Origin: Aminobacterium colombiense DSM 12261
GTDB lineage: Bacteria; Synergistota; Synergistia; Synergistales; Aminobacteriaceae
Length of the DNA: 64,000 nucleotides
NCBI RefSeq assembly: GCF_000025885.1
Contig: NC_014011.1
Span: 186,001 to 250,000, forward strand
Direction: 5' to 3'
Of this stretch, positions 15,794 to 40,794 are shown one piece after another; within the stretch, counting starts at the first letter, position 1, and each line of letters starts with the position of its first letter. The position numbers and the translations under genes are program-made. The notes below the pieces were generated by a model. It did no database searches. It worked only from the letters and a program-made list of their open reading frames with translations, and was not told where the DNA came from.

Positions 15794-17050
15794 ATGTTTG
15801 AGAAAGCATGGGAAGAATTAGAGAAGACGGATCGGGCCATAGCCGATGTTATAACCCGTGAACGGGAGCGTCAGGAACACGGCATCGAGCTTATAGCCTC
15901 AGAGAACTTTGTATCCCCCGCCGTCATGTGCGCCATGGGATCAGTGCTGACCAATAAATACGCGGAAGGCTACCCTGCCCACCGCTACTACGGAGGCTGC
16001 CACGTAGTTGATGAAGCCGAGAACCTTGCCCGTGACAGAGCGAAACAGCTTTTTGGCTGCGACCACGTGAACGTCCAGCCTCACTCCGGCTCCCAGGCCA
16101 ACATGGCAGTCTACTTTACATGCCTTGAGCCCGGCGACACCATTCTGGCCATGAACTTGTCCCACGGCGGCCACCTGACCCATGGCTCCCCGGTGAACTT
16201 TTCCGGACAGCTGTACAACATCATTCCTTACGGAGTGAGCAAAGATACAGAGACCATCGACTTTGCCGAAGTTGAACGCCTTGCCCTAGCCCACAGGCCT
16301 AAGCTCATCGTCTGCGGGGGCAGCGCCTATCCCCGTGAGATTGACGCGGAGAAATTCCGCGAGATAGCGGACAAGGCAGGCTCTCTGCTGATGTTCGACA
16401 TTGCGCACATAGCGGGTCTTGTGGCGGCGAAGCTTCACAAAGACCCCATTCCATTCTGCGACTTTGTCACCACCACCACCCATAAGACCCTTCGCGGTCC
16501 CCGCGGCGGCATGATCATGTGCCGAGAGGCCTTTGCCAAGGGAGTTGACAAGAGCATCTTCCCCGGTATGCAGGGGGGTCCTCTTATGCACATTATCGCG
16601 TCCAAGGCAGTGGCTTTTGAGGAAGCCCTTCAGCCGTCCTTCAAGGAGTACCAGGGCAGAATAGTCAAGAACGCGGCCTCCCTCGCGGAAGCCCTTCTGA
16701 AACATGATTTTCATCTTGTTTCCGGTGGAACGGACAACCACCTTATCCTGATCAACCTCACGAGCCGTGGCGTAACGGGTAAGGCCCTTGAGACAGCCCT
16801 TGACAAGGCAGGCATCACGGTGAACAAGAACACAGTGCCTTTCGATACCCAGAGCCCCTTTATCACTAGCGGAGTGAGAATCGGCACGCCGGCGGTGACC
16901 ACCCGCGGCTTTGGTTCCAGCGAGATGGAGCAGATAGCGTCCTGGATGGACGAAGTGGCGAAGAACGTAGAGAACGATAAGGTACTTTCCCGCATCCGCG
17001 CCGAGGTCCTTGATCTCTGTGGCAAATATCCCCTCTACGCGGGAATGTAA
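15794..17050 (+). CDS. glyA: Serine hydroxymethyltransferase
   Basis: 418 residues, full length. It converts serine and tetrahydrofolate to glycine and methylene-tetrahydrofolate. Family marks: [10 protein letters not shown] near residue 35, [26 protein letters not shown] and the PLP Schiff-base Lys231 in [18 protein letters not shown] lies just ahead of ATG 15794. Codon use is markedly more biased (AAG, GCC, CGC) and GC-richer than in neighbours, as for highly expressed genes. It is 33 bases upstream of a PLP enzyme with the same bias, so they form one operon, probably for serine/glycine fermentation. A decayed second copy lies at 29.7 kb. Confidence 0.96.
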
Positions 17051-17083: not shown

Positions 17084-18553
17084 ATGATCGATCTGACCAT
17101 TCACGAGAAAGGGCTCAAGAAGGCAATAGAGCGAGCCAAGGAGCGCAACGTAATAATACCCACCTTCAAGCAGATGAAGGATCCGGATCGTTATACCCCC
17201 GACAAGATCAAGGAGCGTCTTAAGAACACCGGTCTTTGGGATGTAGACCCAGTAAACCTTTTCCGCATAACCTGGAAGAACGAGCCCAAGAAGCAAGGAG
17301 GGCTGTTCGGCAAGACCAACTACGTGGAGATTCCCCGTGAAGTGACGGGAGTAAACGCCAGGATAGTTGCCATAGTCGGCAAATGGTTCCCGACGGGAGC
17401 CCACAAGGTTGGAGCGAGCTTTGGCTGTCTAGCTCCTCGTCTTGTGACGGGACAGTTTGACCCCACTGCCCAGAAGGCCGTATGGCCCTCCACGGGCAAC
17501 TATTGCCGTGGCGGCGCCTATAACGCCCAGCTTCTTGGGTGCGAATCCATTGCCATATTGCCTGAAGGCATGAGCCCTGAACGTTTTGAGTGGCTTAAGA
17601 CGGTGGCAGGAGAGGTCATAGGTACTCCGGGCACGGAGAGCAACGTCAAGGAGATTTACGACAAGGTCTGGGAGCTTCGTAAGACCCGGGACAACATCAT
17701 GATCTTCAACCAGTTCGAGGAGTTTGGGAACCATCTTTGGCACTACGAGGTGACAGGCAACGCCATGTACGACGTTCTGCAGGAAGTTTGCGGTGAGAAG
17801 GACCGGTATTTTGGCGTTGTAATTACATCTGGATCAGGCGGCACCCTTGCGAGCGGCGACTTTTTGAAGAAGAAGTATCCCCTGAGCAAGATAGCGGTAG
17901 GGGAGGCTCTTCAGTGCCCCACTCTGTTGTGGAATGGATTTGGCGCCCACCGGCTTGAGGGCATAGGCGACAAGCACGTTCCCTGGATCCATAACGTGAA
18001 GAACACCGATATGGTTATAGATGTGGACGACGCAGACAGCATGGCCATGATCCGCCTCTTCAACGAGGATTCGGGCCATGAGTATCTTCGCAAGAACGGA
18101 GTTTCCGAAGAGTTCATAGAGAGCCTTCCGCTGATAGGCATATCAGGTGCGGCAAACATTCTGATGGCCATCAAGATGGCCAAGTACTATGAACTTGGCA
18201 AGAACGATGTGATCATGACAGTTTTGACAGACTCCATGGAGATGTACGGTTCCCGTGTGAAGGAAATGGCCGACGAGACAGGGCCCTACACAGAGATGAT
18301 GGCGTCTGTTGACCATAACCGCCACGTTCTTGGAGTAGGCATAGATGCCATGGAAGAGCTTTCCTACTACGCCCGCAAGCGAGTCCATAACCTAAAGTAC
18401 TACACGTGGATCGAGCAGCAGGGGCGCACGTCTGAGGAACTGAATGCCCAGTGGTACGACTATGATGAGTACTGGGGCTCTATCCAGGGCATGGCTGACG
18501 CCATTGACGAAAGAATAGACGAATTCAACAGATTGACGGGTCTTCTTGTTTAA
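17084..18553 (+). CDS. Fold-type II PLP-dependent enzyme (cysteine synthase/threonine synthase-like)
   Basis: 489 residues. The PLP lysine is Lys108 in PTGAHKVGASFG; STGNYCRGGAYNAQLLG follows as the substrate loop, and SGSGGTLASGDF is the phosphate-binding glycine loop. It is longer than cysteine synthase (about 310) because of N- and C-terminal extensions. The reaction is likely beta-elimination or beta-replacement on serine, cysteine or a related amino acid; I cannot choose. It does not resemble diaminopropionate ammonia-lyase YgeX. Location 33 bases behind glyA and the shared strong codon bias point to a central catabolic role in serine/glycine metabolism. Confidence 0.75.
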   Translation: MIDLTIHEKGLKKAIERAKERNVIIPTFKQMKDPDRYTPDKIKERLKNTGLWDVDPVNLFRITWKNEPKKQGGLFGKTNYVEIPREVTGVNARIVAIVGKWFPTGAHKVGASFGCLAPRLVTGQFDPTAQKAVWPSTGNYCRGGAYNAQLLGCESIAILPEGMSPERFEWLKTVAGEVIGTPGTESNVKEIYDKVWELRKTRDNIMIFNQFEEFGNHLWHYEVTGNAMYDVLQEVCGEKDRYFGVVITSGSGGTLASGDFLKKKYPLSKIAVGEALQCPTLLWNGFGAHRLEGIGDKHVPWIHNVKNTDMVIDVDDADSMAMIRLFNEDSGHEYLRKNGVSEEFIESLPLIGISGAANILMAIKMAKYYELGKNDVIMTVLTDSMEMYGSRVKEMADETGPYTEMMASVDHNRHVLGVGIDAMEELSYYARKRVHNLKYYTWIEQQGRTSEELNAQWYDYDEYWGSIQGMADAIDERIDEFNRLTGLLV

Positions 18554-21887: not shown

Positions 21888-21926
21888 TTCTGAGAATGGG
21901 AAAATTTTTTGAGGGGAGGTTCTATT

Positions 21927-23513
21927 TTGTTTGATATTTTAATTAAAAACGGTACCTGTTATGCAGGAGACGGAAAACCTGGTTTTGTTTCTGATGTGGC
22001 TATTGAGGCAGGAGTTATAGCGGCAATAGGCAATCTGCAAAACGCAGAAGCAAAGCGAGTGATCGATGCTCGGAATTTAGCAGTAGCTCCAGGATTTATC
22101 GACACCCACAGCCACTCTGATCTTGTTGCACTTGTAGAACCTGAAATTGCAAATAAGACAACCCAGGGAATAACCACAGACATAATAGGACAGGATGGAA
22201 TGTCTCTTGCCCCAGTTAAGACGGAGTATGTCGGAACATGGAAAAAAGTCATGGCTGGCCTGGAAGGGCAATATGAAGTGGAGTGGGATTGGCTTAGTTC
22301 CTCCGATTATCTCTCCCGGTTAGATGATCAGCCTCTTGGGCCCAATCTTGGCTATCTTGCTCCTTATGGAAATATACGTATGTGTGCTGTGGGTCTTGAC
22401 AATCGTCCAGCTACAAAGGACGAAATCGCAAAAATGCAAAATCTCCTGGAAGAAGCCATATTAAATGGAGCGATGGGCTTATCTACAGGTTTGATCTATC
22501 CTCCTTGCAGTTACGCGTCAGAGGATGAAATAGCCGAGCTTACAAAGGTGCTTACTAAATACGGTCTTCCTCTGGTGATTCACCAGAGAAGCGAGGCAGA
22601 TTATATATTGGAGTCCATGGACGAGGTAATAAGGATCAGCCGGAAATCTGGCTGCCCCATCCACTTCTCTCACTTTAAACTCTGTGGCAAGAAGAATGCT
22701 CATCTCTTCGACGCTGTAATGGAGAAACTGGAAATAGCATCCAGAGAAATCTCAGTTTCCTTTGATCAGTACCCTTATACCGCTGGGAGCACGACGTTCA
22801 GCGTCATTCTTCCTCCTTGGGTTCATGACGGAGGCGCAGATAAGGCACTAGCTCGTTTGGCCGACCCCGTGGCCCGTGAACGGATGAAACAGGATATTCA
22901 TAATGGCATTCCCGGATGGGATAACTTCATTGATTTTGCGGGAATGGAAAATATATCTGTAACTTTCGTTAAAACTGACAAAAATGCCGATGTAGTAGGC
23001 AAGAATATGATCGAGATCGGCAAGTTGAGAGGGAAAGATCCACTTGACGCGGCTTTTGATGTTCTTCTTGAGGAAGAAATGGTGGTAGGGCTGGTCGATT
23101 TTTACGGCTATGAGGAGCACATTGAAAAAATCCTCGCCCACCCCCTTCAAAACGTTTGCACCGATGGCATTCTTGGAGCCCACCCTCATCCCAGGGTATA
23201 TGGTTCTTTCCCCAGAGTGTTGGGAAGTTATGTGCGGGAACGTAAGATTCTGGATCTTCCTACGGCGATTCACAAAATGACCGGACGGCCCGCTTCAATT
23301 TTCAAGATGAAAAATAGAGGTTTTCTTAAAGAAGGTTATGCGGCAGATATCACAATCTTTGACCCCGAAACCGTTATCGACACCGCGACTTACGAAAATC
23401 CAAAGCAGTTTTCCAAAGGAATTCCTTATGTCATGGTAGGCGGAAAGCTCGCAGTTGATGATGAAGTAGTTATGAAGGGGAAATCGGGGCGAGTGGTTAG
23501 GTTTGAAGGTTAG
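21927..23513 (+). CDS. N-acyl-D-amino-acid deacylase family protein (copy 1, Asp variant)
   Basis: 528 residues from TTG 21927, which has GGGAGG at proper distance; the TTG at 21909 encodes that ribosome site and is rejected. Amidohydrolase fold with HxH at residues 61-63 (DTHSHSD), His in IHQRSEAD, His in HFSHFK, and Asp in CTDGILGAHPHPR. In the well-studied D-aminoacylase a Cys in GNCG binds the metal; here that place is Asp90 (GQDGMS). Only 39 bases after dctM, it should act on the imported substrate, releasing a free amino acid. Function could be N-acyl or N-carbamoyl hydrolysis. Confidence 0.85.
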   Translation: MFDILIKNGTCYAGDGKPGFVSDVAIEAGVIAAIGNLQNAEAKRVIDARNLAVAPGFIDTHSHSDLVALVEPEIANKTTQGITTDIIGQDGMSLAPVKTEYVGTWKKVMAGLEGQYEVEWDWLSSSDYLSRLDDQPLGPNLGYLAPYGNIRMCAVGLDNRPATKDEIAKMQNLLEEAILNGAMGLSTGLIYPPCSYASEDEIAELTKVLTKYGLPLVIHQRSEADYILESMDEVIRISRKSGCPIHFSHFKLCGKKNAHLFDAVMEKLEIASREISVSFDQYPYTAGSTTFSVILPPWVHDGGADKALARLADPVARERMKQDIHNGIPGWDNFIDFAGMENISVTFVKTDKNADVVGKNMIEIGKLRGKDPLDAAFDVLLEEEMVVGLVDFYGYEEHIEKILAHPLQNVCTDGILGAHPHPRVYGSFPRVLGSYVRERKILDLPTAIHKMTGRPASIFKMKNRGFLKEGYAADITIFDPETVIDTATYENPKQFSKGIPYVMVGGKLAVDDEVVMKGKSGRVVRFEG

Positions 23514-23561: not shown

Positions 23562-24743
23562 ATGGCTATGGAGTGGAGTGAGTCTTTAGTTTCTTTATGT
23601 AGAGAAATGATACGCCGGCCCAGTCTTTCCGGGCAGGAAAAAGAAATGGCTGATTTTGTAGAACAGAGGATGATAGAACTAGGATTTGACTCTGTAGAGC
23701 GGGATCATTATGGAAACGTTTCAGGGCGCATTGTTCTGGGCAGCGGCGGGCGTCGAATACTTTTTGAGGGACATATGGACCATGTTGATATAGTGGATCC
23801 CTCCAAGTGGACCCACGACCCCTTCGGTGCGGAAGTAGTTGATGGACGTATATATGGAAGGGCAACATCAGACATGAAGGGAAACCTTGCCGCTTCCATC
23901 ATGGCGGCAGCCTTGATAAAAAAAGAAAAGGCAGACCTTAACGGCGAGATCATAGTTGCGGGCTCTGTCCATGAAGAGTGTTTTGAAGGGGTTGCATCCG
24001 AGGCCATAGGCAAGCGTTGGAATCCTGACTGTGTTGTTATCGGCGAGGCGTCCTCTCTGAATCTTAAAAGAGGGCAACGTGGTCGCGCAGAAGTTGTTTT
24101 GGAAACTTATGGCAAATCAGCTCACTCCTCCAACCCAGAGGTAGGTTTGAATGCCGTCAAGGCTATGGTTCCTCTTCTTTCTGCTATAGAGAATGAGTTT
24201 GAGCCAAAGGAACAGCCGGTCCTTGGCAAGGGAATCCTCGAGTTGACAGATATCATCTCTTCTCCTTATCCTGGAGCCAGTGTAGTGCCTGAACGCTGCC
24301 GTGTAACCTATGACCGCCGGCTTCTGGTTGGCGAGACGGATACAGAGGTTTTGGCCCAGATCCAGAAGATTATTGATGAAGAGAAGGGGCGCAATCCCCA
24401 GCTTAAAGCAAACGTATCCCTTGCGGTTGGAAGGGAAACCTGCTATACAGGCGATTCTATAGAAGCCACCCGTTACGCGCCAGGATGGCTTTTCCCTGAA
24501 GATAACTGGTTTGTGGCCGCAGCCATGCGCGGTTTGCGCGAGGCAGGTTTGAACCCAGAGCTTTCTCACTATGCCTTCTGTACCAATGGCAGCTACTATG
24601 CTGGAAAAGCGGGAATCCCAACCATAGGTTTTGGCGGTTCCCTGGAATCTCTGGCCCATGTGGTCGATGAGTATATTGAGATAGACCAGCTTGAGAAGGC
24701 CTGTCTCGGCTATATGGGAATTATCCGTTCTGTGTTGGGATAA
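23562..24743 (+). CDS. M20-family hydrolase, YgeY-like (copy 2)
   Basis: 393 residues. M20 metal motifs: GHMDHVD, GRATSDMKG, HEECFEG (catalytic Glu), and the final His in AHVVDEYIEID. AGGAGGT precedes ATG 23562. It is in line with the TRAP genes and deacylase 1, 48 bases apart, and in front of the hydantoinase remnant and carbamate kinase. This is the ygeY position in the E. coli ygeW-X-Y-hyuA-yqeA order, as I recall it. Nearly half of its residues appear shared with copy 1 at 14465. Confidence 0.87.
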   Translation: MAMEWSESLVSLCREMIRRPSLSGQEKEMADFVEQRMIELGFDSVERDHYGNVSGRIVLGSGGRRILFEGHMDHVDIVDPSKWTHDPFGAEVVDGRIYGRATSDMKGNLAASIMAAALIKKEKADLNGEIIVAGSVHEECFEGVASEAIGKRWNPDCVVIGEASSLNLKRGQRGRAEVVLETYGKSAHSSNPEVGLNAVKAMVPLLSAIENEFEPKEQPVLGKGILELTDIISSPYPGASVVPERCRVTYDRRLLVGETDTEVLAQIQKIIDEEKGRNPQLKANVSLAVGRETCYTGDSIEATRYAPGWLFPEDNWFVAAAMRGLREAGLNPELSHYAFCTNGSYYAGKAGIPTIGFGGSLESLAHVVDEYIEIDQLEKACLGYMGIIRSVLG

Positions 24744-24770: not shown

Positions 24771-24809
24771 AAGCATAGACGTGCGTTTTGTCAACGCACG
24801 TCTATGCTT
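24771..24809. terminator. Perfect 17-bp hairpin after ygeY copy 2
   Basis: Stem 24771-24787 with 24793-24809 (AAGCATAGACGTGCGTT), 5-base loop. No T-run follows on the plus strand; the minus-strand side is T/C-rich. It ends the ygeY transcript or protects its 3' end; it also marks the boundary to the decayed region. Confidence 0.6.
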
Positions 24810-24986
24810 AATTGAATATCCTGCCCTATCCTAGAATGACGTTGTCTAATGTTTTGTAAGCTCTTCCTCGAAAATTTGGGATGAAAGCTATTGACCATCG
24901 CGGTTGGTATGATGGACAATATTCCTGTTGTTATATTGGCGGCCCTTTCTCCCTTTAATGGTAGGTTTTCTGCCATCTCTTCTTGA

Positions 24987-25181
24987 ATTTTATCCCCTAT
25001 ATCTGGAGAAGCGCCTTGCGCACTGCGGCCTCCAACTTTTTATGAAACCTCAGTTTTCTCTGTTGTTGGGAAAATATGGCGCACTATTTCCCGGGGGGAG
25101 ATCATTGTAGAAAATTGCGAATATGTGGGGATGAAAAAAAGAGGACATTTCCTTCAAAATATGAGAGAAACGGGAGTGTGA
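24987..25181 (+). pseudogene. C-terminal remnant of a hydantoinase/dihydropyrimidinase gene
   Basis: An open frame with no usable start runs from a TGA at 24984 to TGA 25179, ending 4 bases before the carbamate kinase ATG. Its end contains FSVVGKIWRTISRGEIIVE and YVGMKKRGHFL, which is the closing segment of D-hydantoinases and dihydropyrimidinases (pattern: G-W/K-P...ISRGxVIVExGxxVGxxGxGxFL). The catalytic domain is gone. The stretch 24810-24983 shows no recognisable gene and may be further eroded hydantoinase or spacer. Confidence 0.65.
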
Positions 25182-25185
25182 GGGC

Positions 25186-26133
25186 ATGGGGAAAAGGATT
25201 CTTGTCGCACTGGGAGGCAACGCAATTTTGCAGCCTGGTCAAAAAGGGACGTCGGCGGAACAGGTGACAAATATTGATAAGACTGTAAAGCAGCTCATAG
25301 ATGTTGTTGAAAAAGGGTATGAGTTAGTTTTGACCCATGGAAATGGCCCTCAGGTGGGAGCCATTTTGATACAGCACGAGATGGCAAAAGAGGCAATTCC
25401 TGCCATGCCCCTTGATTTCTGTGGGGCAGAAAGCCAGGGCCTTATCGGATACATGCTATGTCAGAGCATACGCAACGAATGTGCCGGGCGGGGACTTAAA
25501 AAAGAAGCTGTTTGTATTGTTACTCAAGTTGAAGTGGACCCTCACGATAAGGCATTCAGAAATCCTACTAAGCCTGTCGGCCCCTTTTATACTCAGGCAG
25601 AAGCGGAACAGAATATGGCTGAGCGGGGTGAACGCTGGATCGAGGATGCCGGAAGGGGCTGGCGGAAAGTAGTCCCTTCTCCGGAGCCTAAGGAAATTGT
25701 AGAAAAAGAAGTGATACGCGCCCTTGTAGACCAGGGAACGGTTGTTATTGCCTCTGGTGGCGGTGGCATCCCTGTCTGTCGGAACGATCAGGGACAATTG
25801 TATGGAGTTGAGGCTGTTATAGACAAAGATTTAGCTGGCGAGCGGCTTGCTCTGGATGTAGGGGCGGATATCTTCGTAATATTGACAGATGTTTCTCATG
25901 CAATTCTTCATTACAACACCCCCCAGCAGAAACCTTTAAAGAAAGTTACTCTGGAGGAAATGAAAAAATACATAGAGGAAGGGCATTTCCGGGCTGGTTC
26001 AATGGGACCGAAAGTGCGGGCAGCACTCAATTTTGTAAAAAAAGGGGGAGGAAGGGCTATCATTGCCAGATTAGATCAGGTCATTCCCGCCTTGAAAGGT
26101 GAAGTTGGCACCCAAATAGAGAGTACGCTCTAA
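25186..26133 (+). CDS. arcC: Carbamate kinase
   Basis: 315 residues, full length. It makes ATP from carbamoyl phosphate and ADP, releasing carbamate. The N-terminus MGKRILVALGGNAIL, the loop THGNGPQVG, and the block DKDLAGERLALDVGAD are diagnostic of the family. GGGAGTGTGAGGGC precedes the ATG; the remnant hydantoinase stop overlaps this leader. As no carbamoyltransferase is present in the window, the carbamoyl phosphate source must lie elsewhere. Position after ygeY and a hydantoinase remnant corresponds to yqeA in E. coli. Confidence 0.95.
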   Translation: MGKRILVALGGNAILQPGQKGTSAEQVTNIDKTVKQLIDVVEKGYELVLTHGNGPQVGAILIQHEMAKEAIPAMPLDFCGAESQGLIGYMLCQSIRNECAGRGLKKEAVCIVTQVEVDPHDKAFRNPTKPVGPFYTQAEAEQNMAERGERWIEDAGRGWRKVVPSPEPKEIVEKEVIRALVDQGTVVIASGGGGIPVCRNDQGQLYGVEAVIDKDLAGERLALDVGADIFVILTDVSHAILHYNTPQQKPLKKVTLEEMKKYIEEGHFRAGSMGPKVRAALNFVKKGGGRAIIARLDQVIPALKGEVGTQIESTL

Positions 26134-26274
26134 AATAAATTATTCGTGCTAATATAGTGAGAGTTCAAAATATAATAAGAATGTGCGAAATAGACCCCTT
26201 TTAAAAACAATTTTTTGCTAAATCCATGTTGATGCCGACGCCATGGACTATAAAGCATAAAGGGGGTAGTGGTT

Positions 26275-27861
26275 ATGTATTTCGATGTAGTAATTAAAGG
26301 TGGACTTTGTTACCTTGGAGATGGCGGGGACCCGGTAAGAAGCGATGTGGGCATAGTAGGGTCTCGTATTGAGGCCATTGGAGATCTGAATGACGCGCAA
26401 ACGGGTTTAAGTGTTGATGCCGCTGGGAAAGTGGTTTGTCCTGGCTTTGTTGATACCCATAGCCATTCTGACCTTGTTGTTCTTAAGGAACCAGCCGTAG
26501 AAAATAAGGTTATGCAGGGTGTAACGACAGAATTGATAGGGCAGGACGGGATGTCTCTGGCCCCTATAATTCCGGAGTACAGGGAACCGTGGAAAAAAAC
26601 CATGGGGTCACTGGAAGGTCACTACGATGTACCATGGGATTGGCAGACGGCTGAAGAATATTTTGAACGGATCGATAGTCAGGACTTGGGACCAAACATA
26701 GCCTACCTTGTTCCCCATGGCAATATACGTCTGTGTGTTATGGGGCTGGATGATCGTGAAGCAACCGATGATGAGATGGCAAAAATGTCTAGGTTGTTAG
26801 CCAAGATTCTCGAGGCGGGGGCTTATGGAATGTCTACGGGCATGATATACCCTCCCTGTTGTTATGCCCCGACCCAGGAATTTGTTGAGCTATGTAAGGT
26901 TCTCAAAGATGCAGATGGCCTCTTTGTGACCCACCAGCGGAATGAATCGGATTACATTCTTGAGGCTATGGATGAAATTTTTGAAATAGGGGCAAAATCA
27001 GGGTGCAGGGTTCATTTTTCCCATTTTAAAGTAGGGGGAAAGAGAAATTGGGATAAGCTGGATACAGTTTTGGCGAAATTAGATGAAGCCAATCTAAGCG
27101 GCATCCCTCTTTCTTTTGACCAGTATCCTTATATAGCAGGAAGTACAATGCTGGGAGTGATCTTGCCACCCTGGGTTCACAACGGCGGTACTGAAAAGGC
27201 ATTAGAAAGATTGGCAGATAAAAACAAACGTGAACAAATGAAAACGGATATCGCAAAGGGAATTCCCGGCTGGGATAACTTTGTAAGTGCAAATGGCGTC
27301 GAAAATATTTATGTTACTTTCGTTAAGACAGACAAGAATTCGAAGTACGTAGGAAAAACCCTTTTAGAAATAGGAAAAATGGCGAACAAAGATCCTCTTG
27401 ATGCTACTTTCGACCTTTTATACGAGGAAGAAATGACGGCGGGCCTTGTGCATTTTTACGGGAAAGAAGAACACATTTCTAAAATAATGCAGAGGGAAGA
27501 GCAGAATTTTTGCACAGATGGCATCTTAGGTGCTCACCCCCATCCTAGGGTCTACGGTACGTACCCACGGGTGCTGGGTAAGTATGTTCGGGAAAATAAA
27601 GATCTAACCATGAGTCAGGCTATTCATAAAATGACAGGTAAACCTGCATCCGTATTAAGACTTGAGAAGAGGGGACTCCTTAAGGAAGGGTATTATGCCG
27701 ATGTGGTTGTTTTTGACCCTGAAACGGTGATCGACAAGGCTACATATGATAATCCAAAGCAATATCCGGAAGGCATAGAGCATGTTTTTGTAAATGGCGT
27801 ACAAGTTGTTGAAAAAGGAGTTTGCAAACCAGCCAAAGCGGGCAGACTCCTGAGAAAATAA
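26275..27861 (+). CDS. N-acyl-D-amino-acid deacylase family protein (copy 2, Asp variant)
   Basis: 528 residues; the ATG at 26275 is preferred over GTG 26269 because AAGGGGG lies at proper distance. Same architecture and many identical stretches as copy 1, including DTHSHSD, GQDGMSLAP, FDQYPYIAGSTMLGVILPPWVHNGG and CTDGILGAHPHPRVYG. It shares the unusual Asp in place of the metal-binding Cys. It is 141 bases downstream of the carbamate kinase and ends at a strong two-way terminator, so it closes the first module. Substrate likely an N-blocked D-amino acid. Confidence 0.85.
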   Translation: MYFDVVIKGGLCYLGDGGDPVRSDVGIVGSRIEAIGDLNDAQTGLSVDAAGKVVCPGFVDTHSHSDLVVLKEPAVENKVMQGVTTELIGQDGMSLAPIIPEYREPWKKTMGSLEGHYDVPWDWQTAEEYFERIDSQDLGPNIAYLVPHGNIRLCVMGLDDREATDDEMAKMSRLLAKILEAGAYGMSTGMIYPPCCYAPTQEFVELCKVLKDADGLFVTHQRNESDYILEAMDEIFEIGAKSGCRVHFSHFKVGGKRNWDKLDTVLAKLDEANLSGIPLSFDQYPYIAGSTMLGVILPPWVHNGGTEKALERLADKNKREQMKTDIAKGIPGWDNFVSANGVENIYVTFVKTDKNSKYVGKTLLEIGKMANKDPLDATFDLLYEEEMTAGLVHFYGKEEHISKIMQREEQNFCTDGILGAHPHPRVYGTYPRVLGKYVRENKDLTMSQAIHKMTGKPASVLRLEKRGLLKEGYYADVVVFDPETVIDKATYDNPKQYPEGIEHVFVNGVQVVEKGVCKPAKAGRLLRK

Positions 27862-27881
27862 AAGCTGATTTTTAAGATGTA

Positions 27882-27926
27882 AAAAGAGCGAGGGTGCACT
27901 TCATAACAAGGCGCCCTCGCTCTTTT
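27882..27926. terminator. Bidirectional terminator between deacylase 2 and pucR
   Basis: 16-bp stem (27882-27897 with 27911-27926, one G-T pair) with an A-run before and T-run after it, placed between convergent genes. Confidence 0.9.
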
Positions 27927-27941
27927 GTCTTTATTTGGTGT

Positions 27942-29504
27942 TTATAAGTGGTTTAGATAAATTCGCATGCTTAAAGCGATGTTCAGTCGGTCTTCGTGAT
28001 CGTCGAGGCTTAAGCCTGATAGTTTTTGGATAGTGTCCACCCTGTATTTTACGGTGTTATGGTGGGTGCCCAGAATTTTGGCTGTTCTTCTATAGTTCCA
28101 GTTATTTTCGACAAGCTTTGCCAACGTTTTAAGCAGGTCTAGGTTGTGTTTCTTATCGTAGTCTAAAACTTCCTCTAAATAATTGTTAAAGAAGGATCTG
28201 AGCTCATTCAAGGGGAGAGAGTGGAGTAATTTTTGTACTCCCAGTTCATCAAAAAAGACAATGGAAGAGTGGTGGCCCAAATTCAAGGCCTCTTGTGCCT
28301 CTTTATAGCTTTTTCTTATTTTGTCGGCGTCATCATAAACTCCGCCCACTCCCATTATCAGCTTTATGCCAAACTCTAACTCGATCTCATTAAAGAGTTG
28401 AGATAGTTGCTCTTCCAATTTTTTCCTAAGGTTTAAAGACAGCTCTTTTTCAGAGGACGAAATGGTAATTATAGAATGGGCCAGGGTTGCGCTGAAAGCG
28501 TTCCCATACAGTTCCTTTATATTCTTTGTGATTTTTAAGGAAACTACATTTGTTATGTTGTCAAAATCATCTTTAGAAGTGAGGGTCACGTCATTGCTTT
28601 CTACCCGAATAATAGACACGAAAAATTTATCCTCAGGTGTCCATTCAAAAAAGTTTTTAAGGAGCGTAGATACTTCTTTTATACTTGATCTGTTTAAGAG
28701 CAGGTCAAAAAAAAGTTCATCTTTATAACGTCGCTCGATATTGCGATTTGATACTTTTTGCTGAAGGTTGAGCTTAAGTATTGTGCAGCCATGTATAAGA
28801 GAGTTTTTTAGAAAAAGAGGCGTAGAATGGGTGTCTTTTTTAAAAGTGTTTTGAAAAAGGTACCCGTAGGTATTTCGCCCAAATTTTAATTCTTCACAGT
28901 TATAAAGGCGGAGATTTTCTTCTAAGGGTAATTTTGTTATGTTGTTTTTAAAGTTATCGTCTAAACTTGAATGGAAGCATTCATTATTAGATGGACTGAC
29001 AAAGGCAAAATCAACATTTGTCATTATTTGAAGGGCGTCTATTATTTGCGAGATGCTGGCCCCATTGGCAACCATGTTTGTGAGTGACTTGTTAATCTTA
29101 TAGCTTTTTAGAAGCTCAAGTTCTCTGTTTTTAAGTATAGTCGATAGAGTAGGAATGAGGATGTCAACAAAACCATAATTAATGGGGTGAGTTATTATGG
29201 GTATGGAAAGTTCATCACTGACCTTTATCACATTGGAAGGAATGTGATCAAGAAATCGCCCAATTTTTATACATAGACACGCGGCATTATGGGTATAAAG
29301 TTTTCTTATGAAATATTCAAGCTCTTCTGGGTTATCCCTCCAGAAAAAACCAGAAGACAGCACCAGTTCTCCTCCATATAGCCAGTTTTCCCACCCGCTA
29401 AGGTTGTCTATGACTGTCACTGTTTTTATATCTCGTGTTATTCCGGATTTGCCAGCGACGAGCTTGAAGGAATTAAATTGAGTTATCTTTAAAAAAGATG
29501 CCAC
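27942..29504 (-). CDS. PucR-family transcriptional regulator
   Basis: 520 residues. The N-terminal PucR domain (ITQFNSFKLVAGKSGITRDIKTV...) runs to about 120, followed by a central region and the C-terminal PucR helix-turn-helix, NWNYRRTAKILGTHHNTVKYRV. Such regulators activate purine, allantoin or amino-acid catabolism genes. The start is uncertain: GTG 29504 has no ribosome site, yet an in-frame TAA lies only about 14 codons upstream, with AAAGGAG followed by no common start codon. Codons are AT-rich compared with the flanking catabolic genes. It separates module 1 from module 2 and likely controls one or both. Confidence 0.85.
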   Translation of the reverse strand: MASFLKITQFNSFKLVAGKSGITRDIKTVTVIDNLSGWENWLYGGELVLSSGFFWRDNPEELEYFIRKLYTHNAACLCIKIGRFLDHIPSNVIKVSDELSIPIITHPINYGFVDILIPTLSTILKNRELELLKSYKINKSLTNMVANGASISQIIDALQIMTNVDFAFVSPSNNECFHSSLDDNFKNNITKLPLEENLRLYNCEELKFGRNTYGYLFQNTFKKDTHSTPLFLKNSLIHGCTILKLNLQQKVSNRNIERRYKDELFFDLLLNRSSIKEVSTLLKNFFEWTPEDKFFVSIIRVESNDVTLTSKDDFDNITNVVSLKITKNIKELYGNAFSATLAHSIITISSSEKELSLNLRKKLEEQLSQLFNEIELEFGIKLIMGVGGVYDDADKIRKSYKEAQEALNLGHHSSIVFFDELGVQKLLHSLPLNELRSFFNNYLEEVLDYDKKHNLDLLKTLAKLVENNWNYRRTAKILGTHHNTVKYRVDTIQKLSGLSLDDHEDRLNIALSMRIYLNHL

Positions 29505-29593
29505 AGTAAAGGAGGATAATGTTTCGCTGCTGTTATTTAATAACAGTTAAAACAACTCCTTTCTAAACGAACTGTTTCGCTTTGGCATTATAT

Positions 29594-29618
29594 CACAAAC
29601 ATTTTGAGATGTTTTGTG
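29594..29618. promoter_or_regulatory. Near-palindrome upstream of pucR, candidate operator
   Basis: CACAAACAT and ATGTTTTGTG face each other around TTTGAG; the arms match apart from one extra base. It is 90 bases upstream of pucR and on the way to the divergent TRAP set 2, a sensible place for PucR binding. Untested. Confidence 0.35.
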
Positions 29619-29730
29619 TTTGTTTACTATTGATAATTGAAAAGCTTCATATATCATAAAAGCACGTCGGCATTAACAAGTGGATCTCGCAAAATTTAAC
29701 ATCTGCAAATATAAAGTAATCTTTACAAAA

Positions 29731-29940
29731 GAGCGGACAAAAGCATTTTCCCCTGAATGGTCAGGGGGTTCATCGTTCACATCATCGCATCTAAAGAGGT
29801 GGTCTTTAAAGGAGCCCTTTGTACGTTCCTCAAAGAGTACCAGGGGCGGGGCAATGTGGAGAAGAATGTAGAGAACGAAAAGGCACTTTCCCGCTTTTGC
29901 GCCAAAGTCCTTAGGCTCTGCAACAAATATTCCCCAACAC
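29731..29940 (+). pseudogene. Internally deleted, frameshifted glyA remnant
   Basis: Translation gives pieces of serine hydroxymethyltransferase: ADKSIFP, then after a frameshift HIIASKEVVFKGAL, LKEYQGRG, joined directly to EKNVENEKALSRF and LCNKYSP. In the intact GlyA the first block is at about residues 253-283 and the second near 396-415, so roughly 110 codons are missing between them. The N-terminal half is absent. It sits 140 bases upstream of dctP2. The remainder of the 29.5-30.08 kb gap is AT-rich and holds promoters, no other gene seen. Confidence 0.88.
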
Positions 29941-30081
29941 ATCAACTCCTAAAATCCATTAATGAAAAAACAAAAAATATTTGTAGCTTATTTGTTATTA
30001 AATACTAAATTTATTCATAATTATAAAAGCATGTTTTATAAGTAATTTTGTTATTATAACTAATATTATGGAGGTGGCAAC

Positions 30082-31155
30082 GTGAGAAGGAATATTTTTT
30101 TAGGGGCGCTTGTTTTACTTTGTGTTTTTAGCCTTCTTGTTGGGGGCGAGGCTTTTGCCAAAGCTGAATATGAGTGGAGTTTTACACAGCCGTGGTCAAG
30201 GCCTCTGAGTAACAAGGGATATGAGTTCTTCTGCGATAAGGTCAAGGAGTATTCAGGCGGTCGGATTGAAATCAAATTTTATTCCGATGGACTTCTTGGC
30301 AACCACGACGAGTCATATCACGCCGTTCAGGAAGGCAGCATCGCCATGGGCGTTTTTTCACCCTACGTCAATTTGGTTCCTGGCGGCATGCTGAACTGGA
30401 TGCCCTGGACAGTGGAGAACTTTGATGAAGCGAGACTGGCATACTCTCCAGCCGGCGGCATTTTGTTCAAGGTTATGGAGGATGCATGGGCAGAAGTTGG
30501 TTTTAAAATTCTCTTCAATGTCGCTCAGGGTCCTTACGGCATAGCGAACAGCAAAAGGCCTATTCGCACTCCCGAAGATTTCAAGAACTTGAAACTGCGA
30601 GTGTCTTCTTCTCTTGGTTTCGTAAAATGCCTCGCGAACATGGGAGAAGGAACGGGCATGACCCTGGAAACTGTTCCATGGAGCGAGCTGTATAACGCCA
30701 TGGCAAGAAAGGTCGTAGATGGCTGCTGGACCATGTGGCCCTCACTGGTTGACGAGAGACACTACGAAGTGGCTCCTTACTTTACAGACCTTAAATGGGC
30801 ATGGGATGCTCAGAATATCGCTATGAACAAGAAACTCTGGGACTCTCTTCCTGACGATCTCAAGGAAGCTATAAAAAAGGCGGCTCTTGAGGCAGAAGAG
30901 TATCTTCTGCAGATTCAGGAAGCGGCACAGGAAGACTATATAGCGACATTAGAGAAGCAGGAGGGCTTTGAGATCATTCGTCTGACCGATGAAGAGCGGC
31001 AGGTCTTCAGAGACAAGGCCCGCATGTCCGGAATCTGGGAAGAGCTTTGCACGCCATGGCTTGAAAAGAAATACCCCGGACAGAATATGACCCAGGTCAT
31101 TCTTGACGAACTTGATCGTATCCACGAAGAGGTTGCTGCGAAAGCAAAGAAATAG
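30082..31155 (+). CDS. dctP: TRAP transporter substrate-binding protein DctP (set 2)
   Basis: 357 residues starting with GTG (GGAGGTGG ahead) and a signal peptide ending near GEAFAKA. The fold marks match set 1: GGRIEIKFYSDG, LKLRVSSSLG with the ligand-binding Arg, and DGCWTMWPSLVDERHYE. TATAAC at 30055-30060 is a likely -10 box. A terminator separates it from dctQ2. It is almost identical to the orphan copy at 40795; a 173-base stretch (30964-31136) is the same base for base. It should deliver an organic or N-acyl amino acid to DctQM set 2. Confidence 0.92.
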   Translation: MRRNIFLGALVLLCVFSLLVGGEAFAKAEYEWSFTQPWSRPLSNKGYEFFCDKVKEYSGGRIEIKFYSDGLLGNHDESYHAVQEGSIAMGVFSPYVNLVPGGMLNWMPWTVENFDEARLAYSPAGGILFKVMEDAWAEVGFKILFNVAQGPYGIANSKRPIRTPEDFKNLKLRVSSSLGFVKCLANMGEGTGMTLETVPWSELYNAMARKVVDGCWTMWPSLVDERHYEVAPYFTDLKWAWDAQNIAMNKKLWDSLPDDLKEAIKKAALEAEEYLLQIQEAAQEDYIATLEKQEGFEIIRLTDEERQVFRDKARMSGIWEELCTPWLEKKYPGQNMTQVILDELDRIHEEVAAKAKK

Positions 31156-31206
31156 CCTTTTCTTAGCCTTGTTGTTTTTGTAGTTTAGAAGAGTTCTTTT
31201 CGCTAT

Positions 31207-31243
31207 AAAAAGGGGAGATATAGAGCTGCTTTCTCCCCTTTTT
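31207..31243 (+). terminator. Terminator/attenuator between dctP2 and dctQ2
   Basis: A 12-bp stem (31207-31218 with 31232-31243, AAAAAGGGGAGA) ending in T5. Same position as the hairpin in set 1, though the sequence differs. Confidence 0.85.
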
Positions 31244-31337
31244 ATTCCTTTAACATGTGGAATCTGTAAATATTGTGTTGTCATCGTTTTTATAGAAAAG
31301 CTTTTTCTATAAGTTTAATGGGCACGGAGGGGTAAGG

Positions 31338-31877
31338 ATGAAGAATTTATACTTACGGTTTGTAAGGCTTATTGAAATATTCGAAAATACAATTTGTGCA
31401 GCTGGGCTTGTTCTCACAACAGTTCTTGTCTTTGCTCAAGTTGTAAATCGTTATTGGCTGCATTTTGAAATAATGTGGTTGTCAGATTTGGCATTGTACT
31501 TTTTTACGTTTTTTATGCTGTTGGCTATCGCTCTTACCACAAGAGTGGAGGGTCACACAAGTGTTGACGTCTTTCTAGAAACCTTTTTTAAGGGAGAACA
31601 CATGGCAAAGTCAAGAGCCATATATATTATGATATTGAATTTAATATCGATTGTTATTATGTTCGCATTTTTGCCAGTTGTTCTAAAGTTTACGCTGCGC
31701 GCAATTACATATCCGGAGTATGGAACTCTGGTACGGTGGTTTAACACGAGCTGGCTCGTTGAGTGTATGTTTATGATGCTTGTACTTTCTATATTTCACT
31801 CTATACATAATGTTGTAGTTAAGTTCATAGATTATCGCCGTCAATACGTAATTCCGGTTTCACAGGAGGGAAAATAA
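31338..31877 (+). CDS. dctQ: TRAP transporter small permease DctQ (set 2)
   Basis: 179 residues with four membrane segments. FAQVVNRYWLHFEIMWLSDLALY and YPEYGTLVRWFNTSWLVE align with set 1. GGAGGGG precedes ATG 31338, and the stop abuts dctM2 directly. Serves as the small subunit of the second sodium-coupled permease. Confidence 0.92.
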   Translation: MKNLYLRFVRLIEIFENTICAAGLVLTTVLVFAQVVNRYWLHFEIMWLSDLALYFFTFFMLLAIALTTRVEGHTSVDVFLETFFKGEHMAKSRAIYIMILNLISIVIMFAFLPVVLKFTLRAITYPEYGTLVRWFNTSWLVECMFMMLVLSIFHSIHNVVVKFIDYRRQYVIPVSQEGK

Positions 31878-33215
31878 ATGGCTTTGGGTCTAACTGTATC
31901 TTTAGTTTTTTTCTTCTTAGGTCTTTTTGGCGGAGTAGCCCTCGGTTGGCTGTTTATAGGAAGCTCTCTTATTGGACTTTCAGTGGCTGGAATGCCGCTG
32001 TCTTTTACAGCAGGAACTTTTTACCACTCTCTCTTTAGTGAAGTCCTAATGGCAATTGGGTTCTTTGTGTATGCGGGAAGCCTTATTTCTGAAGCGGGGC
32101 TGGCTGATCGGATCGTTCGTTTTTCCTATGCCCTTGTTGGTAGGATACGCGGGGGCATGGAAATTGTCTCCATCGTGGCGACCCTCTTTCTCAGCGCTTT
32201 GACAGGTTCGTCAGTTCCCTGCATTTCCGCTCTTATTCCTCTGCTGGTTCCTCGCCTTGCCAAGTATGGATACGAACCCCAATACACCACGGCTATCCTT
32301 TGTTCTTCAAGTTTTCTTGGCTATCTTATCCCCCCAAGTGTTCCAGCCCTCGTCTATTGTCTTGTCGCTCAGCAGTCCGTGACGGCTGTTTTTCTTGCGA
32401 CAGTTGTCCCCGGTCTTTTAATTGCTCTGGGTTATGGGGTTTTGAATTTTTATTTGTGCCCCAAATATATGAATATGGCCATTGCTTCGGAGCACGAACT
32501 GCCACCAGCCGCCTTTTCTGAGAGAATGAAGGAGATAATGAGTTCTACATGGGGAGCTCTTCCCGCGTTGGGATGTCCGCTCATCATTCTGGTTGGCATA
32601 TACGGCGGTATCTTTACTCCTAACGAAGCGGGAGCTATAGCTACTATCTATTGTATTTTTGTGGGACTTTTCGCATATAGGGAACTTACTAAAAAGGGTT
32701 TTTGGAACGCTACGCTCAGTTCCCTTGTTTCTATAGGAGTCATTGCGGTTCTAATAGCAGCTGGAACCGTCTTCGCACGATATTTGATTCGTCTTGGAGT
32801 GGCTCAGGAAGTCGCAAACTGGATGTTGGGGCTTTTCGAGAGCAAGATTATGATCATGCTCATGGTCAATATCCTTCTTTTGATCATGGGGATGTTCATT
32901 GATGGCATTCCCATTTTGATTTTGGCAGTGCCCCTTATCCTGCCTCTGATGAAGGAGCTTGACGTTAATCTGGTTCATTTAGGCGCTATTGTCATTCTTA
33001 ATGTTGGTCTTGGTGTAATAACGCCTCCCTTTGCCATGTCTATTTTTGTAGGGTCCCGGTTGTCGGGATGCTCTTATGGAGAATTAGTGCCAATCATGAT
33101 GAAGTTTCTTCTACTCGTAGGCATTCCTGTTCTTCTTCTGACGACGTATATCCCAGCTCTTTCATGTTGGCTGCCAACTGTTATTTTAGGACCCAATGTG
33201 GTGGGGCCATGGTAG
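31878..33215 (+). CDS. dctM: TRAP transporter large permease DctM (set 2)
   Basis: 445 residues, about 12 membrane segments. The same family blocks as in set 1 are seen: LFLSALTGSSVPCISALIPLL, GYLIPPSVPALVYC, GIYGGIFTPNEAGAIA, and the end SCWLPTVILGPNVVGPW that closely matches the end of set 1. The start follows the dctQ stop without a gap. The pair of transporters likely differ in ligand through DctP rather than through this subunit. Confidence 0.95.
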   Translation: MALGLTVSLVFFFLGLFGGVALGWLFIGSSLIGLSVAGMPLSFTAGTFYHSLFSEVLMAIGFFVYAGSLISEAGLADRIVRFSYALVGRIRGGMEIVSIVATLFLSALTGSSVPCISALIPLLVPRLAKYGYEPQYTTAILCSSSFLGYLIPPSVPALVYCLVAQQSVTAVFLATVVPGLLIALGYGVLNFYLCPKYMNMAIASEHELPPAAFSERMKEIMSSTWGALPALGCPLIILVGIYGGIFTPNEAGAIATIYCIFVGLFAYRELTKKGFWNATLSSLVSIGVIAVLIAAGTVFARYLIRLGVAQEVANWMLGLFESKIMIMLMVNILLLIMGMFIDGIPILILAVPLILPLMKELDVNLVHLGAIVILNVGLGVITPPFAMSIFVGSRLSGCSYGELVPIMMKFLLLVGIPVLLLTTYIPALSCWLPTVILGPNVVGPW

Positions 33216-33299
33216 ATTTTTATTAAGAAGATTTTTTCATGGGGAATTGGCATATAACAATTTTTAACTACACTTTAGAAGTTAAGGAGCGGACCAGCA

Positions 33300-34895
33300 A
33301 TGAACTTTGATGTCATTATTAGAAATGCCATTGTAGTTGATGGTACAAACAGTCCCTGGTTTAAAGCTGATGTCGGAATATCAAACGGCCGCATTGATTT
33401 TGTAGGGAAAGTACCTCTTGATGCGACTGGAAAAGAGGAAGTAGATGCCGAAGGCAAGGTGCTATGCCCTGGGTTTATTGATGGCCATACCCATGCGGAT
33501 TTTGTTCTGCTGCAGGATCCACTGATGCTTTCGAAACTTAAACAGGGAGTAACTACGCAAATAATAGGACAGTGCGGCATAAGCCCGGCACCTGTGACTG
33601 ATGATAAGGTCGAGATGCTTGATCAGTATGTTGGATTCTTTAAAGGCGGGACAACTCTTGACTGGACGTGGCGTAGCTTTGGGGGTTGGCTTGATAAGCT
33701 GGAAACATTGAGTCTGGGAACAAACATAGGCGCATGTGTCGGGCAAGGTACGGTCAGGCTTGCTGTCATGGGCTTTGAAAACAGGCAGCCTACACAGGAC
33801 GAGATGGAAAAAATGCGTGCTTATGTGGAAGAGGCCATAGATAGCGGGGCTTTTGGTCTTACCAGCGGCCTGATCTATCCTCCCGGAGTTTACTCGAGCC
33901 ATGAAGAGCTTTGTGCTCTAACGACTGCACTGAAGAAGAAAAATGCCCTGTATCTGTCTCATATGCGCAGTGAATCAGGAGCAGTTGTAGAAAGCGTTAT
34001 GGAAACTATAGACATTGGGCATAAGAATGATATCCCTGTACAAATCTCCCACCATAAAGCGGCTGGTAAGATGTACTGGGGACTTGTACAAACTACCTTG
34101 CAGAAAGTGGACGAGGCCCGTGCAAATGGGGTGGATGTGACGTTAGATCTGTATCCATATGATTACAGCAGCACGACGTTGCGGGCCATATTGCCGGCAT
34201 GGATTCAAGAGGGCGGTTTGCAGAAACTTAATGAGCGCCTGGCTGATCCTTCTGTGAGAAAACAAGTCATGGGAGAAATAAAAACAGATGTAAGTTGGGA
34301 TAACTACTACTTGCTTGGCGGCGGCAGTGAAGGTATAACATTGTTGTACACTCCAAAGACTCCGGAATGTGAAGGAAAAACCCTATCGGAAGTCGGGAAG
34401 CTTATGGGCAAGTCTCCAATAGAAGCGGCTTTCGACATTATTGTGGCCAATGGAGGTTCGGACACAGTTTGTTACAATGCTATGTCTGAAGACGATGTGC
34501 AGTATGTTATGAAGCACCCGGCAGCCATGTTCGTATCAGACTCTATTTTTGGAGCAAGTGGAGGCAAGTCCCATCCCAGGACCTTTGGGACGAACCCAAG
34601 GGTGCTCTGCAAATATGTAAGGGAAGAAAAGGTTTTGACCATTGAGCAGGCAGTATGGAAGATGACTGGGTTCCCGGCGGCTCGTTATGGTCTCCAGACC
34701 AAGGGGATAATTCGAGAAGGAATGGATGCGGATATTGTCATATTTGATCCAGAAACAGTAAGGGACAAGGCGACTATAGAGAATCCTCAACAGGATCCGG
34801 AAGGGATCGAATACGTCTTTGTAAATGGAGTTAAAACCGTCGAGAAAGGCGTTTGCACCGGAAAAACTGCCGGTAGGGTTTTAAGAAAGAAATAA
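33300..34895 (+). CDS. N-acyl-D-amino-acid deacylase (copy 3, Cys form)
   Basis: 531 residues, ATG 33300 behind AAGGAG. Metal site: HxH in DGHTHAD (residues 63-65), Cys92 in GQCGISPAP, His in LSHMRSESG, His in ISHHKAAG, and Asp in FVSDSIFGASGGKSHPR. These match the classical D-aminoacylase ligands, unlike copies 1 and 2. It splits an N-acyl-D-amino acid to the D-amino acid and a fatty or short acid. It lies 84 bases after dctM2 and 36 bases before the racemase-like gene, which could turn the D-product into the L-form. Confidence 0.9.
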   Translation: MNFDVIIRNAIVVDGTNSPWFKADVGISNGRIDFVGKVPLDATGKEEVDAEGKVLCPGFIDGHTHADFVLLQDPLMLSKLKQGVTTQIIGQCGISPAPVTDDKVEMLDQYVGFFKGGTTLDWTWRSFGGWLDKLETLSLGTNIGACVGQGTVRLAVMGFENRQPTQDEMEKMRAYVEEAIDSGAFGLTSGLIYPPGVYSSHEELCALTTALKKKNALYLSHMRSESGAVVESVMETIDIGHKNDIPVQISHHKAAGKMYWGLVQTTLQKVDEARANGVDVTLDLYPYDYSSTTLRAILPAWIQEGGLQKLNERLADPSVRKQVMGEIKTDVSWDNYYLLGGGSEGITLLYTPKTPECEGKTLSEVGKLMGKSPIEAAFDIIVANGGSDTVCYNAMSEDDVQYVMKHPAAMFVSDSIFGASGGKSHPRTFGTNPRVLCKYVREEKVLTIEQAVWKMTGFPAARYGLQTKGIIREGMDADIVIFDPETVRDKATIENPQQDPEGIEYVFVNGVKTVEKGVCTGKTAGRVLRKK

Positions 34896-34931
34896 ACAGC
34901 ATAACGATTATATGGGCGGGAGGTGTTTAAG

Positions 34932-36056
34932 ATGTCGTGGAGACCTACCAGATTGGAAGTTGACCTTGAGAAGGTCAGAAATAACTATCGGGCAATACGA
35001 AAGCATGTGGGAGAGAGCGTTAGGATCTTTGGCGTTGTAAAAGGTGACGCCTATAACCTCGGAGCAGATAAAATAGGCAGGGTTTTGGCAGATATGGGGG
35101 TAGACTTCTTTGCGGTTGCCACTGGTGATGAGGCCATTTCCTTAAGGGAATCGGGCATTGAATCCCCTATACTGGTGCTGGGGCCTTCTCCGTATGGCAT
35201 TGCTGAAGAATATGTTCGTTTAGGGATAAGAGCTGCCATTAATGATAAAGGAATAGCTAAGGCTCTGTCAGATGCATCTGTCAGACTTCAGAAACCTGCA
35301 TATGGCCATGTCAAGATAGATTCCGGCATGGGAAGAATAGGCTTTTTCCCTCATGAGGCGGCAGATGCGGTAGAAGAGATCTCTCATTTGCCAGGGCTTA
35401 ACCTGGAGGGGATCTTTACCCATTTTGCCATTTCAGATGCAAGGGATCTAACATACACTTATGAACAGCATTCCACCTTTGTAAAAGTTATTGGCGAGCT
35501 TGAAAAGCGGGGCATTACTTTTTCTATAAAACATTGCTGCAATTCTGGCGCTACTCTTGCGCTGCCCCAGTTTGTTATGGACGGCGTAAGGCCAGGACAG
35601 CTTGTAGTGGGTATGTACCCGTCAAAAGAAGTGGTACGTTCTATCGCCATAGAGCCTGTTTTCGAGTTTAAAACAGCCATATCAGCAATTCGTACCGTGC
35701 CAGCCGGAAAAAAACTCAGCTATGGTTTGACATATGAAACTACAGCAGATGAAAGAATCGCTGTTATACCGGTGGGGTATCATGACGGCTATTCCAGAGA
35801 GCTCTCAGGAAAAGGTACGGAAGTGTTAATACACGGGAAACGATGTCCCATAGTGGGGCGGATATGTATGGACCAGGCTCTGGTGGATGTAAGCGTTCTT
35901 CAGAACCCCCAAATAGGAGACGAAGTCGTTCTCCTTGGAAAGCAGGGAGAAGAAACGATCACAGGGGATGAGATCGCTGACAAGATCGGAACCATCTTCA
36001 CAACCCTCCCCAACATGATAGGTAAAAGAGTGCCGAGAGTGTATTTGAACGAATAA
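34932..36056 (+). CDS. Alanine racemase-like PLP amino-acid racemase
   Basis: 374 residues, fold type III. ATG 34932 has GGGAGG nine bases ahead; GTG 34923 abuts that site. The PLP lysine lies in GVVKGDAYNLG, which departs from the usual VVKADAYGHG: the Gly-His after Tyr is Asn-Leu. The second catalytic Tyr is seen in LSYGLTYETTADERIAVIPVGYHDG. The motif around DGVRPGQLVVGMYPS lacks the usual LYG. These changes suggest a broad or altered specificity rather than a housekeeping alanine racemase. Context with deacylase 3 suggests racemising imported D-amino acids for catabolism. Confidence 0.82.
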   Translation: MSWRPTRLEVDLEKVRNNYRAIRKHVGESVRIFGVVKGDAYNLGADKIGRVLADMGVDFFAVATGDEAISLRESGIESPILVLGPSPYGIAEEYVRLGIRAAINDKGIAKALSDASVRLQKPAYGHVKIDSGMGRIGFFPHEAADAVEEISHLPGLNLEGIFTHFAISDARDLTYTYEQHSTFVKVIGELEKRGITFSIKHCCNSGATLALPQFVMDGVRPGQLVVGMYPSKEVVRSIAIEPVFEFKTAISAIRTVPAGKKLSYGLTYETTADERIAVIPVGYHDGYSRELSGKGTEVLIHGKRCPIVGRICMDQALVDVSVLQNPQIGDEVVLLGKQGEETITGDEIADKIGTIFTTLPNMIGKRVPRVYLNE

Positions 36057-40488: not shown

Positions 40489-40794
40489 TTCTTAATCCTC
40501 CTGACTGAAAAACAGTTCATATTATATAGCCGTTCGCTTATAATGGCACGTTTAGTCAAAAAATGTCAAGAAGTAATAGCATGGGCTCTGTAGGCCCTCA
40601 CTCTCTTTTTGCGGATCAGTCTCCTTCCGATTTATTTACTCCTCGGGCCCTCGGGAAGCTTTTAAGAGTTTATTAACATTTCCGTTTTGGAAAAATATAA
40701 ATTAATTAACAATTATGAAAATATATTTTGCCAATACTTCAAAAATTGTGTATTATAATTAATGTTGCAATTTACTAAATGTGGAGGTGGCAAA
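40489..40794. other. Intergenic region between rlmN and dctP3
   Basis: 306 bases without a gene. For rlmN (minus) a TTGACA at 40564-40569 and a TATAAT near the gene are seen, but their spacing is not ideal. For dctP3 (plus) a perfect TATAAT lies at 40753-40758 in a leader resembling that of dctP2. Two short GGGCCC-type inverted repeats lie at about 40588-40655. Otherwise nothing is recognised. Confidence 0.5.

Follow-up and report, generated by a model that had tools for sequence, protein, structure and literature searches.

A putative two-gene scar upstream of the carbamate kinase gene of Aminobacterium colombiense carries the 3′ end of a hydantoinase gene

In E. coli, the ygeW-ygeX-ygeY-hyuA-yqeA cluster, in which hyuA is ygeZ, belongs to the reductive uric acid pathway (PMC12507026; PMC4016543). 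Ring opening of cyclic ureides is the task of hydantoinases, ureido groups are taken off by YgeY and carbamoyltransferases, and ATP is formed from carbamoyl phosphate by carbamate kinase (PMC12507026 and family knowledge). A related operon is found in Aminobacterium sp. MB27-C1 (G001; genome of 2,427,830 bp), in the order TRAP transporter, YgeY, carbamoyltransferase, BMP-type ABC transporter, hydantoinase and carbamate kinase. Both systems have a hydantoinase gene directly upstream of the carbamate kinase gene, as well as genes for a YgeY-family hydrolase and a carbamoyltransferase. The MB27-C1 operon would process an imported hydantoin-like compound.

Here we compare with these systems, and with a second congener (G002), a stretch of 64,000 nucleotides (the window) of the genome of the amino-acid-fermenting bacterium A. 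colombiense, a single contig of 1,980,592 bp. An earlier note on this DNA had proposed that a hydantoinase tail between ygeY and carbamate kinase genes marks a decayed ygeY-hyuA-yqeA pathway. Compared to the E. coli cluster, the window keeps the last 39 codons of hyuA, while the ygeY adjacent to them is a paralogue.

A 64-aa frame opens past the TGA at 24984–24986 and closes at the TGA at 25179–25181, 4 bases ahead of the carbamate kinase ATG at 25186. Both the frame and the hydantoinase motif described in the earlier note are thus present. The profile search suggested there for the translated frame gave a partial answer: no meaningful match was observed in Pfam, and NCBIfam returned a weak match to TIGR02033 (D-hydantoinase; E 0.0025, 16.8 bits). 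Residues 24–57 of the frame align with profile positions 420–453 of 454, so that the match stops at the C-terminal end of the profile itself. Against PDB sequences, the frame gave noise only. The 16.8 bits lie below the TIGR02033 cut-off of 393 and the metal-binding catalytic barrel is missing at this locus, from which about 415 residues, barrel included, are gone. The frame carries a fragment of a TIGR02033 member and is not itself a member.

The evidence for a hydantoinase comes mainly from MB27-C1. Its hydantoinase (L198:7014–8378, minus strand, 454 aa) is a true TIGR02033 member with 425.6 bits, and lies directly upstream of a carbamate kinase orthologous to that of the window (83% amino acid identity, best match). 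The tail of the frame matches the C-terminus of this protein over 38 aa by tblastn (66%, E 2.6e-10) and over 39 aa in a whole-genome protein search (64%, E 2.3e-9). At the DNA level, the identity is 71% over 234 bp, extending past the stop codon into the kinase gene (blastn, E 8e-27). The aligned gene products end in IGKTWCTLSRGTVIVENGEYVDLQRRGHFLQ-YRETGA for MB27-C1 and in VGKIWRTISRGEIIVENCEYVGMKKRGHFLQNMRETGV for the window, each followed by the stop, and the stop and intergenic layout before the orthologous kinase is the same in both. Upstream of about position 25062 the hydantoinase similarity of the frame is faint. The tail without a catalytic domain that had been proposed is therefore borne out by these matches for about 25062–25178, where hydantoinase identity can be taken as established by homology, and not for the whole of 24987–25181. 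We hereafter call the last 39 codons plus stop (25062–25181, plus strand; HyuA/D-hydantoinase family), the final twelfth of the gene, the stub.

Hydantoinase and carbamate kinase genes follow each other on the same strand and in the same order, with matches 35–72 bases apart, in four genomes of the same taxonomic order (G026, G035, G101 and G120). The intact pair thus occurs in one congener and, within the order, in no fewer than four other genomes.

Window and MB27-C1 differ in the tail at 10, 5 and 19 of 39 first, second and third codon positions, respectively, which indicates that the tail diverged mostly while coding. Could it have been retained for a function, as a context for translational coupling or ribosome binding of the kinase gene or as a short leader peptide? 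The last bases of the tail (GGGAGTGTGAGGGC) contain what is probably the Shine-Dalgarno sequence for the kinase gene, in a layout alike in MB27-C1, and a codon-position bias is seen within the tail. However, the first possible start codon (ATG, GTG or TTG) that follows the upstream stop in this frame is GTG 25125, and the stub therefore has no start codon of its own except for its last 18 codons. Furthermore, it is carried by one genome only and the kinase gene of the second congener manages without any hydantoinase tail. A retained function therefore seems very unlikely.

No intact orthologue of the MB27-C1 hydantoinase was found by whole-genome search of A. colombiense: its only hits were the stub and, elsewhere, full-length paralogues with at most 32% identity. 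We also considered the stub as a recent partial duplicate of the genome's own amidohydrolase loci, and rejected this since the tail did not match them. For the true YgeY of the MB27-C1 operon, no orthologue exists in A. colombiense either (best match 35%, the YgeY-like paralogue upstream of the stub), and the carbamoyltransferase and BMP-type substrate-binding protein of that operon have only paralogues of 29–35% there. A. colombiense thus lacks the intact hydantoinase, as well as orthologues of three further operon proteins, namely the true YgeY, the carbamoyltransferase and the BMP transporter protein. While the MB27-C1 operon is complete, with a kinase and a hydantoinase C-terminus orthologous to those of the window, all is gone in the window except the carbamate kinase gene and the stub.

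The gene upstream of the stub (23562–24743, plus strand) encodes an M20 hydrolase, a YgeY-like paralogue. It passes one YgeY model, NF009555 (478 bits, cut-off 321), and with 260 bits falls under the cut-off of the other, TIGR03526 (321.5), on which the YgeY of the MB27-C1 hydantoinase operon scores 727 bits. It is 92% identical to its counterpart in the second congener and 35% identical to that operon YgeY. By these scores and identities, it is a paralogue, distinct from the YgeY that belongs to the hydantoinase operon. The idea of a decayed ygeY-hyuA-yqeA array accordingly holds for hyuA-yqeA, intact as a pair in MB27-C1, and fails for the adjacent ygeY. In the same way, a hydantoinase lost between flanking enzymes that were kept is right for the retained carbamate kinase and wrong for the upstream ygeY, which does not belong to that pathway. 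The upstream gene of the same cluster (21909–23513, plus strand) encodes an N-acyl-D-amino-acid deacylase-like amidohydrolase (PF07969).

Further upstream, a PLP enzyme of 488–489 aa (window 17084–18553; L132:10273–11739) shows 86–88% conservation within the genus and occurs close to ygeY-like genes throughout Synergistales. It is over no NCBIfam cut-off, the best model being cysK with 93 of 351 bits. A palindrome with 17-bp arms (24771–24809) follows the ygeY-like gene, ahead of the scar, and is present as a single copy in the window. Its T-rich tail is on the minus strand only and it is terminator-like if read on that strand.

The second congener shares the flanking genes of the window, in the order deacylase, ygeY, threonine-synthase-like gene (thrC-like) and carbamate kinase. 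The thrC-like gene between the ygeY-like gene and the kinase gene encodes an intact protein of 417 aa (NF006050, 308 bits, cut-off 303). No hydantoinase and no stub were found in its spacer of about 140 bp or elsewhere in that genome. The comparison with related genomes suggested in the earlier note thus shows an intact gene at this position in both congeners, which is a hydantoinase gene in MB27-C1 and a thrC-like gene in the second congener. The window itself retains scraps of both. Positions 24881–24913 (plus strand; MKAIDHRGWYD) match the PLP-type thrC-like gene at L127:16296–16328 with 88% identity over 33 bp, the whole length of the scrap. In 5000 random sequences drawn from a first-order Markov model with the same dinucleotide make-up, this score was never reached. 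The bases between both relics (24914–25061, plus strand) gave no significant DNA or protein match to either gene and are too decayed to assign. From these matches, the scar is a junction of two genes: ygeY-like gene, thrC scrap, about 150 bp, hydantoinase tail and carbamate kinase gene. Both scraps have intact counterparts in the two congeners.

With an intact thrC-like gene exactly here in the second congener, a thrC scrap upstream of the tail and a weak NCBIfam match of the tail alone, one could ask whether the tail resembles a hydantoinase by chance and the frame is really decayed thrC-like sequence. Nevertheless, the tail has no thrC similarity, either by profile or by frameshift-tolerant alignment, and it matches a full-length hydantoinase adjoining the orthologous kinase. 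Chance resemblance is thus extremely improbable, and a decayed threonine synthase as identity of the frame is ruled out by the intact MB27-C1 hydantoinase with its DNA match of E 8e-27.

The E. coli-like gene order of the window is thus secondary, a product of deletion or recombination and not the remnant of a contiguous ygeY-hyuA-yqeA array, since the adjacent ygeY is a paralogue whose neighbour in the second congener is the thrC-like gene with a scrap in the window. Identities on both sides bear on the events involved. Left of the scar, the ygeY-like gene, ygeY2 (78 versus 67%) and the TRAP permease gene (89 versus 35%) are nearer to the second congener. The kinase gene (83 versus 79%), rlmN (86 versus 77%), feoB (84 versus 81%) and most outer-flank genes on both sides are nearer to MB27-C1. 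MFS and FeoB genes follow the MB27-C1 operon and are likewise neighbours of the region in the other two genomes, those of the window and the second congener. Accordingly, the scar could be a recombination breakpoint, with a left part of the second congener's type (deacylase-ygeY1-thrC) and a right part of the MB27-C1 type (hydantoinase-carbamate kinase), instead of a simple deletion in one ancestral array. However, the same picture results from differential gene loss in a single long ancestral array, the MFS gene past the kinase gene is again nearer to the second congener (72 versus 55%), and the comparison spans three genomes of the genus. We regard a breakpoint as quite possible, while leaning against it. 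The alternatives are that a single ancestral array with both gene sets lost different parts in each of the three species, or that two versions of the region were brought together at the scar by recombination. A bolder proposal, in which the scar is the exact breakpoint between deacylase/ygeY/thrC and hydantoinase/carbamate kinase versions of a nutrient-use island and the locus a genus-wide site for exchanging modules of amino-acid and ureide catabolism, is tentative and in our opinion rather unlikely.

A breakpoint origin is compatible with the reading that we favour, namely that the locus is very probably a non-functional gene scar, in which removal of an operon left the kinase gene and the final 39 hydantoinase codons, the latter joined to the thrC-like scrap. 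The shortness of the thrC-like scrap, 33 bp, weighs against this reading. Its history, including the substrate, the direction of the pathway and the number and order of events, is what we infer. An ancestor would have had a catabolic operon for an imported hydantoin or cyclic ureide. The hydantoinase would have opened this compound, carbamoyl phosphate would have been freed by a carbamoyltransferase, aided or not by YgeY, and carbamate kinase would have used it to make ATP. In the A. colombiense lineage, one or more deletions or recombinations would have taken the operon, sparing the last 39 hydantoinase codons and the kinase gene. The same events would have taken nearly all of the neighbouring thrC-like gene, and both scraps would have been joined between the ygeY-like paralogue and the kinase gene. 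Since the second congener has neither hydantoinase nor stub, we likewise infer loss, as opposed to gain in MB27-C1, for the operon genes other than the hydantoinase. The hydantoinase stub itself is a case of ordinary gene loss.

The carbamate kinase gene (25186–26133, plus strand; ArcC/YqeA family) is intact. Its product scores 428 bits on TIGR00746 (cut-off 358) over residues 3–311, as expected from a full-length member, with orthologues of 83% identity in MB27-C1 and 79% in the second congener. It is the sole carbamate kinase of the window genome at E ≤ 1e-40. The aspartate/ornithine carbamoyltransferase family has two members elsewhere in this genome. As one of them adjoins a dihydroorotase-like gene, the kinase may serve the other, and our guess is that it now works with this remaining ornithine carbamoyltransferase-like enzyme. 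Uric acid degradation was considered as the lost function and is unsupported: no SsnA scored above the TIGR03314 cut-off (455.5) in the three Aminobacterium genomes, the best scores being 341 bits in the window genome and 373 in MB27-C1. A full uric acid pathway is therefore not indicated.

Downstream of the kinase gene, a block with deacylase, PucR-type regulator, TRAP transporter, second deacylase and alanine racemase genes (26269–36056) lies between the kinase and MFS genes; it is missing in both congeners, where the MFS gene directly follows the kinase gene. Another relic, of the serine hydroxymethyltransferase gene glyA, was observed at 29727–29930, upstream of the second TRAP transporter set. 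It consists of two fragments that resemble the intact glyA (15794–17050), one with 61% identity over 41 aa (E 1.5e-8), the other with 68% over 25 aa. The translation of a lone TRAP substrate-binding protein gene (40762–41862) is nearly identical to that of 30082–31155, which suggests a recent duplication.

Taken together, these results document gene loss within a catabolic operon of which congeners have intact counterparts. They call for caution in A. colombiense, where the surviving ygeY-like and carbamate kinase genes are no basis for predicting degradation of hydantoin or carbamoyl amino acids, and show that a gene order like that of E. coli can be of secondary origin.
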